64,000 nt of DNA. Source: Phallus indusiatus. Its lineage: Eukaryota > Basidiomycota > Agaricomycetes > Phallales > Phallaceae. Location of the stretch: contig JAQFWX010000020.1 of NCBI GenBank assembly GCA_027605045.1, positions 1 to 64,000 of the forward strand. Direction: 5' to 3'. The position numbers and the translations under genes are program-made. A model generated the notes under the pieces. That model did not search any database and had not been told where the DNA came from. It worked only from the letters and a program-made list of their open reading frames with translations. Positions 12,227-48,958 of the stretch are shown here, one piece after another (within the stretch, counting starts at the first letter, position 1; each line of letters begins with the position of its first letter).

Positions 12227-12254
12227 AATTCAAATTCAAATTCAAATTCAATTT
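12227..12254. repeat. Short AAATTC tandem repeat
   Basis: Four near-perfect AAATTC units overlap the 3' end of the BolA gene. Such a run is a simple-sequence repeat with no evident role. Confidence 0.7.
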
Positions 12255-12718
12255 AATTGGCACTACGAGCTTTTTCCAACTCAGCAGCGTATTGCTTTGG
12301 GGTTAGTGTTTTCTAATGGAAGAAACAATCCATCAAAAGTTGGTTTAGATCATATAATTGTGGTCCGATTTTTTGTTCACCTGCGAAAACGCGTGCATCT
12401 GGGCGATCTGCGTTTTGAGAAGTTCATTGACTAGAATTTTTCACGTTAGCAAGAAAAAAGACCGTTGACGATGGAATCTACATACTCATTCGATGTCGGG
12501 CCAATGTTGTCTTTCCTTCGAAGGCCTGACAGAAGGTAACAGTCAGGATAGCCCTTTTTTTGAAGAGCAAAGTGTTTTGTGAACCGCTGACGTACCTCAC
12601 TAACGATGAGTACAGCATAACTCTCGCCACATCCACTGGATTGATCCGCTATATCCAGATGTGATACGGGAATGGCGTTCTTCAAAGCCTCTTCGAGAAG
12701 TTTTTGAGAAATGGGCAT
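12253..12718 (-). CDS. BolA family protein (BOL2/Fra2-like)
   Basis: Four exons on the minus strand (12718-12596, 12525-12486, 12430-12381, 12312-12253) splice in phase to 90 residues, the usual BolA length. Diagnostic stretches are 'SGCGESYAVLIVSE', 'FEGKTTLARHRMINELLK' and 'QIAQMHAFSQKTLTPKQY'. The invariant His of 'MHAFSQ' and the Cys of 'GCGE' can ligand a [2Fe-2S] cluster with a CGFS glutaredoxin. In yeast the Fra2-Grx3/4 complex senses iron-sulfur status and controls the iron regulon, and the family also serves cluster delivery. The start MPISQKLLEEAL matches the family N-terminus. A perfect iron-type GATA box sits about 80 bases upstream of the ATG. There is no frame break. Confidence 0.9.
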
Positions 12719-13302
12719 TTTCTGAACAGCTAAAGAGAGAGAGAAGAGTGGGGGTTGGTAATAAGAGATGATGATAGAAAGATCGTACGTGTGGTTTATC
12801 TGATAAGAGTATTCATTCAATCTGGATTACATAACCTCAGCTCTACTTTTCACGCTCGTGTCTACTTCGCACTTGCACTTTGATTAAAAACTTGACAGGG
12901 GGATAGTGAAAGAATGTGTGAAAAGAAAAAGAAGAGAAAGGTGCGAGATATCGTGATTATTGTGAAATTGCGTGTTTTTAGTGGGTACCAGTACCGTGTG
13001 AAGCTGGTCGTGATGGGGTATGATTCATTACGAGCCAATAAGACGAGGTAATTACAAAACTACAGCAAATAGGGTGTATGACTTTCTAATCATATAAGAG
13101 AAACACCTTTATCAGATACGCTATTCAGTCCCAGATTAAACGTAAATAAGCGAGTTACGAGTATAAGTTACTCCAATCTGACCTTCCCACACCAGATCGT
13201 GTGCTCAGTCCTTTTGGTTGCTATTGAGGTAGCTGTCACTGGCCGTTGCGATAAAGACCTGCGGTATCGGGCGGACATCGTGAATAATCAATTACCAATC
13301 TC
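12719..13302. other. BolA promoter / UNC-50 3' flank
   Basis: No gene is seen between the BolA start and the UNC-50 stop. The part next to BolA holds a GATA box, listed separately. Confidence 0.4.
12796..12806 (-). promoter_or_regulatory. Iron-type GATA site (TTATCTGATAA) upstream of BolA
   Basis: TTATCTGATAA contains two overlapping exact matches to ATCWGATAA, one on each strand. Fep1, Urbs1 and SreA iron repressors bind this sequence. It lies about 80 bases upstream of the BolA ATG. One such match per window is expected by chance, so the functional reading is tentative. Confidence 0.4.
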
Positions 13303-43126: not shown

Positions 43127-45653
43127 TCATGTTTCTTCAAGACCTTTATAATGTATCAAGTTAGGAAAGGGCGCATGCAAATGCTATGGAGTGTAATGTC
43201 AGTTGCTCCTTCGCCATACAAGAAACAAAGAGCCTGGCTTACGGTCCGATACATTCCTTGAAACCTCATCCTCATGAAACATTTTCCTGGTAATGTCTCC
43301 GTCTTTGGGTCTAACCAGAGTTTCCGTAACTCATGTCCGATAGGAATCTGCTTTTCCAAGACGCTTTTCACAATCGCCCATCCAATCCCGTTGTAATGGA
43401 GTTTTAAAACACGTATAAGCTGCTGAAGATGGTTGTGTATGAGCGTATGATATAAACGCGTGTATACGTCCTCTAGCGTGTCTGCGATGATCGAGTGGCC
43501 GGGAGCTATTACGCCATCAAGGGACTCGAGAGGTGTTGACTCGATTACGGAACGTTCATGAACTCTCAACCCTCCAAAATCTCGAATTACGAATCCTTTT
43601 AATTCTTTTGTCCCTATATCGAACCGTGCCAGTACGTTCTGTGGATGTGCCTCGAATGCTACCCCGTTGGCAATAACGGAAGGTAAAAACGCCGCGAAGA
43701 ACAATTCAACAAATCTAATTCGTGTTTCGCCATATATATCAAACCAGTTGCGCGTATCACGACTAGAAGCATACCTATGCAGCCACGCAACTCGCTTCTT
43801 TTCGTCATCAAGACCGAAGACGATTTGCACTAGAGGTTCTTCATCGCTACCACTGTATCCTGTTTCAACAAGTGCAGTACAAACAATAGCGCGTTCTTTA
43901 TGCACCGCTTCAGCAGTGTTTTCATAACATTCTCGAATGATACACGCAAGATGTTTGGCTATTTCACCGTCCGGGTTAACTGAGGATACACTCGCCAGCT
44001 CTTTTTGAACAATCATAAGAGACCTGTCATACGTAAGGTGTGGGACGATTTGGCTGGAGAATCGTGGTCCTAGGAATGCGGATGCAGGCGATATTGTTCG
44101 TACAGCAGATGTTAACCGTATGCCGAATGCAAGCTTCAGGTGTGTATCTCGCAGTACTTCAACGATTACCGAACTAATGCAAGAAGTTAGCACGCATAAC
44201 GATATTCACTAATTCAAGACTCTACCGCAAGCTTTGTTGTGCCTGTGCAGTAAGTGAGTATTCCTTGGGAAGAATACGTGCTTCGGGGAACTTCTTCACG
44301 ATGTTCTCAATCTGGAGCTCATGGATGGGGATTAGGATCTCTTTTGGCGGTTTATCCGATGCTTCTCTTCCTGCTTTGCAGATTTCATTGAAGATGGGAG
44401 AGACGCAATTGTCCCACGGGCCTTGGATGTTCAACTTGTCTCGAGGAACTAGAATCATCCGTATATTGGGTTCTTTCCAATTGAAGTCACCCGGTGAAAT
44501 CGGAGTAATTGGAGGAAGAGTACGGCGCATCTTATGCATCTGCTAAACTGTTCGAAATCGAGGGCGGAACATAGCGGGATAAACGGGACTGACAGGATGA
44601 GTGGGATGGCCTTCAATGACGCATTGCTCCCAAACAATGCTCGACGATTCCCATGTTGGCATAACAGGAGGATTCTCATATGAATATTCTATAAAAGTAC
44701 GATGCCAAACATCTGGCGTCAGTTCTCGATGAAGCCATAGGGACTCGTCATTGACGCACGTTGCCATTCCATCGAGTTCAGAAGCTCTTCAGCCACGTCC
44801 ATTTCAAGATCTTTTTCAATTCCTGAATGCTGTGCATACTTCTTCCAAAGGTGTACCGGACCAGGACACGAAACAAGCTCAAAGTTGGAGATGTCAAACT
44901 CAGTGATCGCGGTTCGTATTGCCCCTTCTACGTCGTAGAACGCCTGGAAAGATCGTCAGAAGCTAGGACTCCTTTTTTTAATTAAAACAATATTGTAAAA
45001 GTGATGTCCGACGAAATCCCATGCTTTATCCTTGCAACCATAGGCAACTATTACGAGAAGACGGGGAAGGCCGCTTCTCCTTGACGAGCTCTATCAGCGG
45101 CAGCTATGCCACGTCAAGGACGCAATATCAAGTTCTTGATCTGAGTCATATGCAATACGACCCTAGACTTGCTCAATCAAGTCAAGTCCGTGCTCCATCC
45201 CCAGACATCCCATCTTACAAGCCGTCATCGCGTCATCCTTATCCATCAAATTGGCTTCTTTGCAAATTTGTAGTCTCTCACCTTCGAAAATCCATTAGGC
45301 GTCGTATGGCTGTCGTTTTCTGGCGTCTTTAGTTCGTAAACATATGGCAGCATATCAAGTGGATCGAGAAGGTTGATATGACGCTCCTTCAGGAAAGGTA
45401 TATGGCGTAGTGGGATCACAGCGAATACCTCTTCCGACGTTCGAACAGGGCCCGTTGATGATGATAGACCGACAGCATCGGAATTTAGAACGATCGCGAT
45501 CCCTTTAAAGTTTTCGTTTTTGGAGTGAGATGGTACGAAGAACGCTTTCAAAAGAGATTCTGTGATAAGACATGACAGTAGGCGTGCTGTGGTTGCGAAA
45601 GCTGCGCGCTCGGATGGTTCCAGACATGACGCCGACGAGAGCAACGCGCTCAT
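43127..45653 (-). CDS. NIS siderophore synthetase, IucA/IucC family (copy A)
   Basis: Minus-strand gene. Exon 1 (45653-45282) starts MSALLSSASCLEPSERAAFA. After a 338-base intron come 'AFYDVEGAIRTAITEFDISN', 'MEW|QYSYENPPVMPTW', the signature 'VIEGHPTHP', 'MHKMRRTLPPITP', 'ILIPIHELQIENI', 'KLAFGIRLTSAVRTISP' and the ATP/carboxylate site 'VAFEAHPQNVLARFD...KGFVIRDFGGLRVH'. It ends 'HLHAPFPNLIHYKGLEET'. All junctions are in phase. The family couples citrate or other carboxylates to amines or alcohols in siderophores (aerobactin, rhizoferrin) without an NRPS. Divergent partner at 46716-48958, sharing a promoter with iron-type GATA boxes. Substrate cannot be told from sequence. Confidence 0.88.
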
Positions 45654-45990
45654 CGTGCTCGAGGTCTTGGATGGAAGATGGATTGATGAAGCTTTTACGG
45701 CAGATTACGGCCAAGGTGAGAGCTCTTTATACAATAACGACATTTATCTGACTTGATCACCAATGTAGTCCGCGTTAGTTAGGAGGTACTGCAACCGGCT
45801 ATCAGTCCGCGATGTGCTAACATAACAAAAAAAAAACGCCATAACATACTCTGACCAACTGAATCTCGTGAGAGACGAGTTTCTAATATCGTGAAGATGA
45901 TTCCTATTCTCCACCACATGAAAAAAAGGACCCACTTTTCGGCAACGGCCACCCGTAGAATCTCTGCCGCGTAATCAAAACTCCGACTTT

Positions 45991-45999
45991 ATCAGATAA
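45991..45999 (+). promoter_or_regulatory. Iron-repressor GATA box ATCAGATAA
   Basis: Exact match to ATCWGATAA, the operator of the fungal iron-sensing GATA repressors Fep1, Urbs1 and SreA. It lies 338 bases upstream of the copy A start codon and faces a second, inverted box 30 bases away. Confidence 0.65.
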
Positions 46000-46020
46000 A
46001 AAGACATTGATAGGCGTTCC

Positions 46021-46029
46021 TTATCTGAT
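46021..46029 (-). promoter_or_regulatory. Iron-repressor GATA box, inverted copy
   Basis: TTATCTGAT is the exact reverse complement of the box at 45991-45999. Paired GATA sites suit these repressors, which carry two zinc fingers. Confidence 0.65.
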
Positions 46030-46715
46030 TAAATCGTGATAGGAAATAGATTCCTCGGCAAAAAAAATTTTGGTTCTTGGGATTGCAACATTATTCTTTT
46101 CACACTAGATCCGTCGTCTTTTCTCATTATCTATAATCTGAGTCTTCGAGTTGGGTTCAATTTGGCGGAGTGGGAATTGTGAAGAAAAGCATTAGCGTTT
46201 CATCTATGAAATTATTTGCGAAATTCAGGATACAGGCGAGCTTCTCTGTCTTATTCGCAACAAGCATTTCCCAGCACTAACTGCAATAGATACTAGGTTC
46301 CTTTTGTTCATTACGGGATGGGGTTATGGTCCCTGAGCGCCTTTTTTTTATCTATTAGTCACAATCTTAGTTTCCAAGATATCGTCATCTCGGGATCTGA
46401 TTCTCCTCCAATCTTGCACGGTTTTCCGACAGCGCCTTGAGAATTTTGGGCTGATTAGTATATCGCTAGACACCCAAATTGCCATTAACCACGTCCAAAT
46501 TTCATATAGGTTCATCATCTGACTGCGCAACCATTGTGGGAGTAAACTTAAGACGAGGGTTAAATCGTCTGTATTCTTATTCTTCTCGATCAAAACATTC
46601 ATCGCTTGTATGTTATTTCTCTGTCAGCCGTCTTCCTTTCAGCCATATAAATATGTTGATACAGGACCGACTTGGCCTTACCCACTCCACTCCGCGCAAA
46701 TCGAACTTCCCAGTG

Positions 46716-48958
46716 ATGCATCCATTACGCTCTTTATCGTCCTCAGACCGCGCAGCATTCGCGGTTTCCTCCCGACTTCTTTCATGCTTGGTGACTGAAT
46801 CTCTGCTAAAAGCGATTTTTGTACCTATTGGTCCTAACTCGGACTCAAACCTGATTGAAACATGCGGAACATGTGTCATTTTATCGAACAAGACGAGCAA
46901 ATCGAGTGTCCCTGTAGGACGACCGTGGTATTACCCGTCGGATGTCTTCCTGCTTGTTTCGATGCAATTCCCTCCTATTCTCAAGAAGCCAGCTGGCGAT
47001 GCGGCGGCAGTAGCAGCAGAAGTCGGCCTGGCGGATCCATCAGATATGCTTCCATGGATATTCGAGATTCGGGAAGACCGTAATCCACGTCAAGCCGATG
47101 CTTCAATGGTTAGTTCCGTCTCATTCCAGCCAATCTCTCCTAAAGATTTATTGTTCATTATTAGCCACCTCACCTGATTCAACTCATAACAGACCTTTCA
47201 GAAGAGTTATGTGACAATACGCGATATTCAATATCTCCTTTATCTTTGGATCCCGTATACATATGGAATAAGTTCTGTGCTGACATTCAATTCGACGATG
47301 TCAGTATGATTAGTATCACTAAGGAGCTCAAAAGTTCCATGGAGTGGCAAAGTATCGTTTAAAGTATTGAGGATTGAGGATTATCGCCTATTGACAACAT
47401 TTTCTTAGGGATAGCATACGAGGAACGAATATCACGACCAACTCTCGCATCATCAGAATTGGAATGGGAAAAGGCCCTTGTTGAGGGACATTCAACACAT
47501 CCTGTAAGGAATATATTACATCAACAACCCGAATTTGGATAAATCTCATCATAATCAAATGCAGATGCATCGAGCGCGTCGAACCATCTTTCCATTACCG
47601 GTAATAATACCTGGCCAATATGATTATTACAAGCCCAACGTTCGTTTTGCTTGGATACCGCGTGAACGTCTCCTGATACAAGGAGAATTCGAGGCGCTGC
47701 TACGATCTCTCCGGGATTCCGCCGAGAAGAACGCTGGTCGTCCATTAGCGGATGTTCCGGATCATGTGCTGTTTCCTCTTCATGAATTGCAGATACCAAA
47801 TATTGAGTCGAGGTTTCCCGATGCGGTTATTCTGCCAGAAGAGTACTTTGTGGCAACTGTGGCTCAAGCTAGCATACGGTGCGACCGGAAACCATTTTTA
47901 GACCTAAATGAAATCTTAAACTAATAATATCAATACGACATTCTAGCACACTCACATTACCTTGTTCGGATAATCTGACCCTCAAAACTGCTGTCGGTGT
48001 CAAGATATCTTCTGCTCTTCGCACCATCTCGCACTTTACGGCATACTTCGCACCTAAATTTGGTCGGGATATTCTCCCACGACTATGCATTGATCCAAAT
48101 ATTTTGGTCATCGAAAAAGAAATAGCCAGTGCAGTTTATGATCACGAAGACCCAGAAATCGCTAAACATTGCACAGCTATGCTGAGACGTACTTACAATG
48201 GGAAAGAGAACGGGGAAAGGGTTATTCCTGCGGCTGTTTTGATAGAATCCGCGTACCAGGATGCGGAGGATGGTGTTCCAGTAGTGGTTACTGCTTTGGG
48301 ATTGGATGATGAATTCAAGAAATACGCTTTTTTGGAACGGTATGAAACCGATCAAACTCACACAGTTCTTTTATCCCTTACTAGTTTCCCAAATAGCTAT
48401 GTCAACCTCGTCTTCGACGCTTTCATACCTCCTCTTTTGGTAAACTGCGTTGCGTTTGAGGCACACGGGCAAAACACCTTGGCACGGTTTGACAAACAAA
48501 CAGGTGAACTCAAAGGCTTCGTTTTCCGAGACTTTGGTGGTTTTCGCATTCATCCGCCCACTTTGTACGAATCCACCGGTGTAGTGATCGACACTCTACC
48601 GGGCCACTGCGTCTTGGTTAATGATGTAGAAGACGCGTATCGGAGAAGTTACCACACACTGATACACTGTCACGTTCAACGTTTGATTCGTGTCCTTGGG
48701 TTTCATCATGATGGGAAAGGATGGGCTCTTGTGAGAGATGCACTCTCCGCTCGAATTCCTCGCGGCACACGATTGTGGGAGTCTTGGCTAAATCCTGAGA
48801 AACAAGTGGTTATGGGAAAGTCACTTCTAAGAATGAAGATGGAAGGAGTGTATCGCGATGTAGGTTTTTCTTCTCGTTTAGCTTGTCATGTCAACACCAA
48901 TGTTCTTTTAAAGGCAGTGTACCAACAAATTCCTAATCTTATTCATTTTCGTAGCTAA
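46716..48958 (+). CDS. NIS siderophore synthetase, IucA/IucC family (copy B)
   Basis: Plus-strand paralogue of copy A with matching introns. It starts MHPLRSLSSSDRAAFAVSSR and runs through 'VFLLVSMQFPPIL', 'PPHLIQLITDLSEEL', 'MEWQ|RIAYEERISRPTL', 'LVEGHSTHP' (copy A has GHPTHP), 'MHRARRTIFPLPVI', 'VLFPLHELQIPNI', 'LKTAVGVKISSALRTIS' and the active-site block 'VAFEAHGQNTLARFDKQTGELKGFVFRDFGGFRIH'. It ends 'VYQQIPNLIHFRS'. It has no frame break. The His of EAHGQN and the RDFGG stretch are the conserved nucleotide/metal-site residues of the family. A Pro-to-Ser change in the GHPTHP motif sets it apart from copy A. The two may act in sequence on a dicarboxylate, as in two-enzyme NIS pathways, or have split substrate ranges. 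Confidence 0.88.

Follow-up and report, generated by a model that had tools for sequence, protein, structure and literature searches.

The 9-mer ATCWGATAA is the motif of the SreA regulon of A. fumigatus, and it also describes in vivo sites known from U. maydis (sid1) and S. pombe (str1 and fio1-fip1), according to the available parts of PMC2610380. In Mucor lusitanicus, the rhizoferrin synthetase gene rfs carries an SreA element and its transcript is lowered by iron (PMC9226013, as far as available). Among mushrooms, two NIS clusters, type A' according to the authors, were described in Armillaria in the accessible text of PMC10700112. Armillaria strains made siderophore both with and without added iron (portions of PMC10700112 and PMC12973365), which counts against the operator reading developed here, and the NIS backbone proteins went undetected in the study of PMC12973365; PMC10700112 also cites, in the part available, two other basidiomycetes in which siderophore output falls with iron. 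The word GATA is absent from the main text of PMC10700112, and a literature search that mostly stopped short of full texts returned no report that any mushroom NIS gene carries an iron-repressor or GATA site. Siderophore genes with SreA boxes are already known, and so are NIS genes in mushrooms; the latter have been catalogued before, and how they are switched, and their role in iron uptake, is the question addressed here.

The locus analyzed here lies in a 64-kb window (the whole stretch of DNA examined, 64,000 nucleotides) and resembles SreA/Urbs1/Fep1 operators in its ATCWGATAA boxes, in a genome carrying a gene for a two-finger repressor with a Cys-rich linker, and in the presence of the same box at FTR1-FET3. 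It differs from them in that NIS synthetases take the place of a hydroxamate/NRPS pathway, and in being a predicted site with presumed binding. Like rfs of M. lusitanicus it pairs a fungal NIS gene with an SreA-type promoter element, but the available text on Mucor describes one gene, whereas here a divergent paralogue pair flanks an inverted pair of boxes. With Armillaria NIS clusters 1 and 2 it shares agaricomycete IucA/IucC and FhuF genes; those form two separate clusters in the accessible part of that report, while here two genes of different clades stand side by side. We regard it as probable that the boxes constitute an iron-repressor operator for the NIS pair, which would be bound, would repress both genes and would govern a siderophore product. 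The features of the NIS locus are as follows:

43127..45653, minus strand: gene A, NIS synthetase with IucA/IucC and FhuF-like domains, A clade, open over conserved exons; exons placed by hand at 45653-45282, 44943-44760, 44712-44594, 44539-44226 and from 44173 down
45726..45731, minus strand: TATAAA, possible core promoter of gene A, 73 bp before its ATG
45989..45999, both strands: GATA box 1, TTATCAGATAA, a full palindrome that reads ATCWGATAA on either strand
46021..46029, minus strand: GATA box 2, one-sided, ATCAGATAA on minus and TTATCTGAT on plus
46646..46651, plus strand: TATAAA, possible core promoter of gene B, 70 bp before its ATG
46716..48958, plus strand: gene B, NIS synthetase with IucA/IucC and FhuF-like domains, B side of the tree; exons placed by hand at 46716-47108, 47165-47351, 47409-47503, 47565-47878, 47947-48339, 48397-48859 and 48914-48958

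Both boxes fall within the 1,062 bp that separate the ATGs of the divergent genes A and B, 336 bp from the former ATG and 687 bp from the latter, and a motif scan of the whole gap found no further exact ATCWGATAA place. The ATCAGATAA at 45991-45999 is part of the 11-bp palindrome TTATCAGATAA. An earlier note had placed a 9-mer at 45991 and its reverse complement at 46021, in a promoter shared by two divergent IucA/IucC genes, and had taken ATCWGATAA to be the Fep1/Urbs1/SreA motif; the sequence letters agree, both genes are open over conserved exons, and the motif assignment accords with the available parts of PMC2610380. The 67.2-Mb assembly (206 contigs) contains four IucA_IucC matches, which are genes A and B in two copies of the locus that are 97.3% alike, and it appears to hold both haplotypes. 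Both boxes are unchanged and the pair is kept in the second copy (L029; box 1 at G000:C128:489552-489562), which is weak evidence given that the gap is well conserved overall and contains longer identical runs.

A search of the whole 67-Mb assembly for ATCAGATAA-N5-35-TTATCWGAT, a pattern that leaves out the combination ATCTGATAA...TTATCAGAT, returned four places: the NIS promoter in both its copies and the FTR1-FET3 promoter in both of its own (6 strand matches, vs. ~0.3 expected). The reversed control of the pattern had no place in the same assembly. FTR1 was located by family search, its exon being the PF03239 match, and is divergent from a multicopper oxidase gene (PF07732) taken as FET3; the gap of ~473 bp between them holds four ATCWGATAA places (P ~6e-10), as does the second copy. 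Start-to-start spacing of the boxes is 30 bp at the NIS pair and 34 bp at FTR1-FET3, so the helical phase of the pair is not fixed. A head-to-head layout, TTATCWGAT-N2-40-ATCWGATAA, was also tried as a shared arrangement and rejected (three places, one in the reversed control); no iron gene was recognized beside such a pair at L093, the one of three flanks examined. The site in the NIS gap is very likely a working iron operator, and the sharing of its layout with FTR1-FET3 ties the NIS genes to iron starvation and names a candidate regulator.

We rate it as likely that this operator controls both genes and that the outcome is a siderophore. Control of gene B is less sure, since its ATG lies 687 bp away vs. 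336 bp for gene A, and the same asymmetry, together with a TATAAA of its own ~70 bp before each ATG, would suit boxes that are real repressor sites mainly for gene A, with gene B regulated separately. We think this unlikely, as the same geometry recurs between FTR1 and FET3, which are likewise divergent, and the NIS gap offers no additional exact place that could serve gene B alone.

IucA_IucC and FhuF-like domains are present in genes A and B and in the Sphaerobolus orthologues, and the stretches GHxTHP, SxR, ExHxQN and RDxGG of the fungal NIS family, which have catalytic roles, are invariant in 16 fungal relatives and present in both gene models. The hand-spliced product of gene B has 629 residues; in the gene A model the last introns are not exactly placed, and the 338-nt segment separating exon 1 from exon 2 is treated, with some uncertainty, as an intron. 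Among the rows of our tree, gene A is closest to Sphaerobolus stellatus M422DRAFT_37526 (63% over 603 columns), a member of the Phallomycetidae, and the closest named relative of gene B is from Clathrus columnatus, order Phallales (68% by BLASTP, 74% over 618 columns). An operator that is real but controls synthetases with a product other than a siderophore seems quite improbable to us: the profile of the 16 relatives hits AsbB, IucA and AcsD, which are structures of siderophore synthetases (gene B as a single sequence had no match in the PDB), and the operator is common to iron uptake genes. In favor of such a product, to our knowledge no basidiomycete NIS product is known, and neither a transporter nor an acetyltransferase was found beside the pair among the 75 of 86 flank ORFs scanned (at least 72 aa, 33-43.1 and 49-64 kb), which yielded only SHMT, P450, GMC oxidoreductase and DUF6533. 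The SHMT lies at ~34.9-36.1 kb, the GMC oxidoreductase at ~50.4-51.4 kb and the P450 at ~54.7-55.0 kb. The idea that NIS is the only siderophore route of this genome was dropped as unsupported, clustered NRPS condensation domains being present (G000:C184:1695029-1707266, C147, and C160) that possibly belong to a ferrichrome-type synthetase; NIS may therefore not be the only route. The SidA family (PF13434) gave 22 matches, all partial and of at most 41 bits, with exons scored apart.

One GATA gene is present in three copies, on C7 (L030), C37 (L032) and C184, each with two GATA fingers; Cys-X5-Cys-X8-Cys-X2-Cys was read between the fingers in L030 and L032. The Fep1/SreA type is defined by two GATA fingers and a C-X5-C-X8-C-X2-C linker in the available text of PMC4992955, and by its predicted protein this gene is a Fep1/SreA-type repressor. 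All three copies carry an ATCWGATAA place ~1 kb ahead of the likely start codon and one more further downstream, which in L030 follows finger 2. GATA finger matches number 35 genome-wide, many of them allelic copies, and the GATA core is common to GATA-class factors; these further GATA genes could in principle mean that the NIS sites serve another factor (nitrogen, light) and not the iron repressor. We consider this very improbable, because the 5' ATC of the 9-mer marks it as the SreA form (PMC2610380, parts available) and the same pair marks FTR1-FET3.

The frequency of the motif sets the background for all of these sites. The 64-kb window has six strand matches at four distinct places (12796, 13109, 45989, and 46021), the places at 12796 and 45989 being palindromes; dinucleotide shuffles of the window averaged 2.16 strand matches, and 3 of 100 shuffles reached six. 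Across the 67.2-Mb assembly there are 1,690 strand matches vs. 912 for the reversed control, or ~1.6 per 64 kb, and 112 palindromes vs. 28. Density is ~0.0235 places/kb (~1,578 places, with palindromes counted once). Among 100 matches listed genome-wide, 93 were on contig C1, representing 88 distinct places, and by eye no two non-overlapping places listed on that contig were within 100 bp of each other. In Markov-1 simulations of the NIS gap (n = 20,000), at least two places occurred in 12. The 9-mer is frequent genome-wide and some of its palindromes lie in repeated sequence, both of which count against the operator reading. Even so, a functionless chance pair, which that frequency would favor, is scarcely credible against a Poisson P of 3.1e-4 for at least two places in the gap (taken as 1,063 bp), a pair within 40 bp in 0 of the 20,000 simulated gaps, and confinement of the searched geometry to this gene pair and FTR1-FET3.

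Under the iron-operator reading, the two boxes would serve a Fep1/Urbs1/SreA-type repressor. Loaded with Fe or an Fe-S cluster when iron is plentiful, this protein would bind the inverted pair and silence both NIS genes; under iron starvation it would be released, perhaps with Grx4/Fra2-type partners as described for S. pombe (PMC4045890 and PMC10704371, parts available), and both genes would be transcribed. The two enzymes would then make a carboxylate-type siderophore, perhaps acting in succession. Sites of this kind also stand at FTR1-FET3, at a ferric reductase gene and at a BolA2/Fra2-like gene, which would place the NIS pair in one iron regulon; the BolA2-like member would close a feedback loop. 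The earlier note had also proposed iron control of the NIS pair and ~one 9-mer per window by chance: the in silico parts of the former hold, with a repressor gene, FTR1-FET3 boxes and a shared rare geometry all present, and the latter was a fair estimate beside the genomic rate of ~1.6.

The BolA-like gene lies in the same window, with two motif places upstream of it:

12253..12718, minus strand: BolA-like gene, spliced by hand, PF01722 2.7e-17
12796..12806, both strands: palindrome TTATCTGATAA, 78 bp ahead of the ATG of the BolA-like gene, also in copy L085
13109..13117, minus strand: ATCTGATAA, the more distant of the two upstream places, at the same spacing in L085

By its loop cysteine we take this gene to be BOL2/Fra2-like; against the NCBIfam BolA model it gave 1.1e-8 and 35 bits (cut-off 137). 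Two places within 400 bp upstream have P ~4e-5. That this BolA2-like gene has a palindrome of its own points to possible feedback on the iron sensor. In the available parts of the sources, S. pombe fra2 is reported not to be iron-regulated (PMC4045890), whereas grxD of A. fumigatus carries a conserved ATCWGATAA and is under SreA repression (PMC6762210).

The history of the gene pair was examined in a tree of 41 rows, comprising the two window proteins and 38 of 99 BLASTP relatives (37 whole, the A. phalloides one split into halves); its root serves drawing only. An A clade (13 rows, support 100/99) separates from a B side (26 rows, 99/93), with the Calocera and Coemansia proteins outside both. 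Pairs split one per clade in 12 of 12 cases (10 species, the A. phalloides fused model and the window pair); the 10 species pairs were picked because their two proteins lie on contigs of equal length, so this ratio gives no measure of linkage frequency. Sharing a contig does not amount to adjacency, which elsewhere is suggested only for Sphaerobolus stellatus SS14, by consecutive locus tags (M422DRAFT_37525/37526), and A. phalloides, by the fused model. A broader proposal, which we put forward tentatively and with more doubt than belief, joins three elements: an inverted pair about three helical turns apart would be a bidirectional operator type that this genome reserves for iron genes in divergent pairs; a linked NIS pathway of two enzymes, old in mushroom-forming fungi (its A and B clades apparently predating the split of Phallomycetidae, Russulales and Agaricales), would stand under the same iron repressor; and that repressor would control its own Fra2-like partner via the palindrome 78 bp upstream.

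The motif also offers a way to find other iron genes in stinkhorns and their relatives. ATCWGATAA occurs on iron genes of this genome that were found by family (FTR1-FET3 and the repressor gene) and on ferric reductase and BolA-like genes, both found through the motif. In 37 control loci (118,651 bases) drawn from GATA, flavin monooxygenase and ferric reductase searches, with overlaps and alleles included and the six repressor-gene loci (9 places) left out of the count, there were 0 places vs. 2.8 expected (P(0) 0.06). The 12 ferric-reductase loci L066-L077 had no box, which counts against the operator reading; these stretches are centered on the C-terminal domain and may miss the promoters.

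Flanks were examined for 43 of the 112 palindromes. Eleven lie by iron or heme genes, with alleles counted apart: NIS 2, FTR1-FET3 2, BolA-like 2, ferric reductase 3 (one at the weakly supported gene), UPF0014 1 and cytochrome c heme lyase 1. Not every palindrome is an iron site: at the remaining 32 no such gene was recognized, a point against the operator reading. Of these 32, 8 are in two sequences that recur on several contigs, as judged by shared ORFs (L038/L049/L086/L088/L089 and L051/L079/L092), and 24 are others, with Pfam run on some. Among 100 palindromes listed, 11 stand 4.6-4.7 kb into their contig, pointing to a subtelomeric repeat.

On C38, two palindromes precede a ferric reductase gene (L054) with PF01794, PF08022 and PF08030 exons, and the L053 gene has a PF01794 match below cut-off. 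An assignment of L053 and L054 as ferric reductases by eye had no Pfam support in the N-terminal ORFs; for L054 the downstream exons did support it, and for L053 it depends on the match below cut-off. The three PF01794 matches on G000:C38 (L053, L054, and L083), one of them below cut-off, suggest a ferric-reductase-type cluster. Three palindromes in total stand upstream of two of its three PF01794 genes. Two more genes were found through the motif. At L046 (G000:C13:635300-637300), a UPF0014 gene has a palindrome 163 bp before its likely start (FetB, an iron exporter of bacteria, belongs to this family), and at L052 (G000:C36:47400-49400) another precedes a cytochrome c heme lyase gene (PF01265, 3.6e-36).
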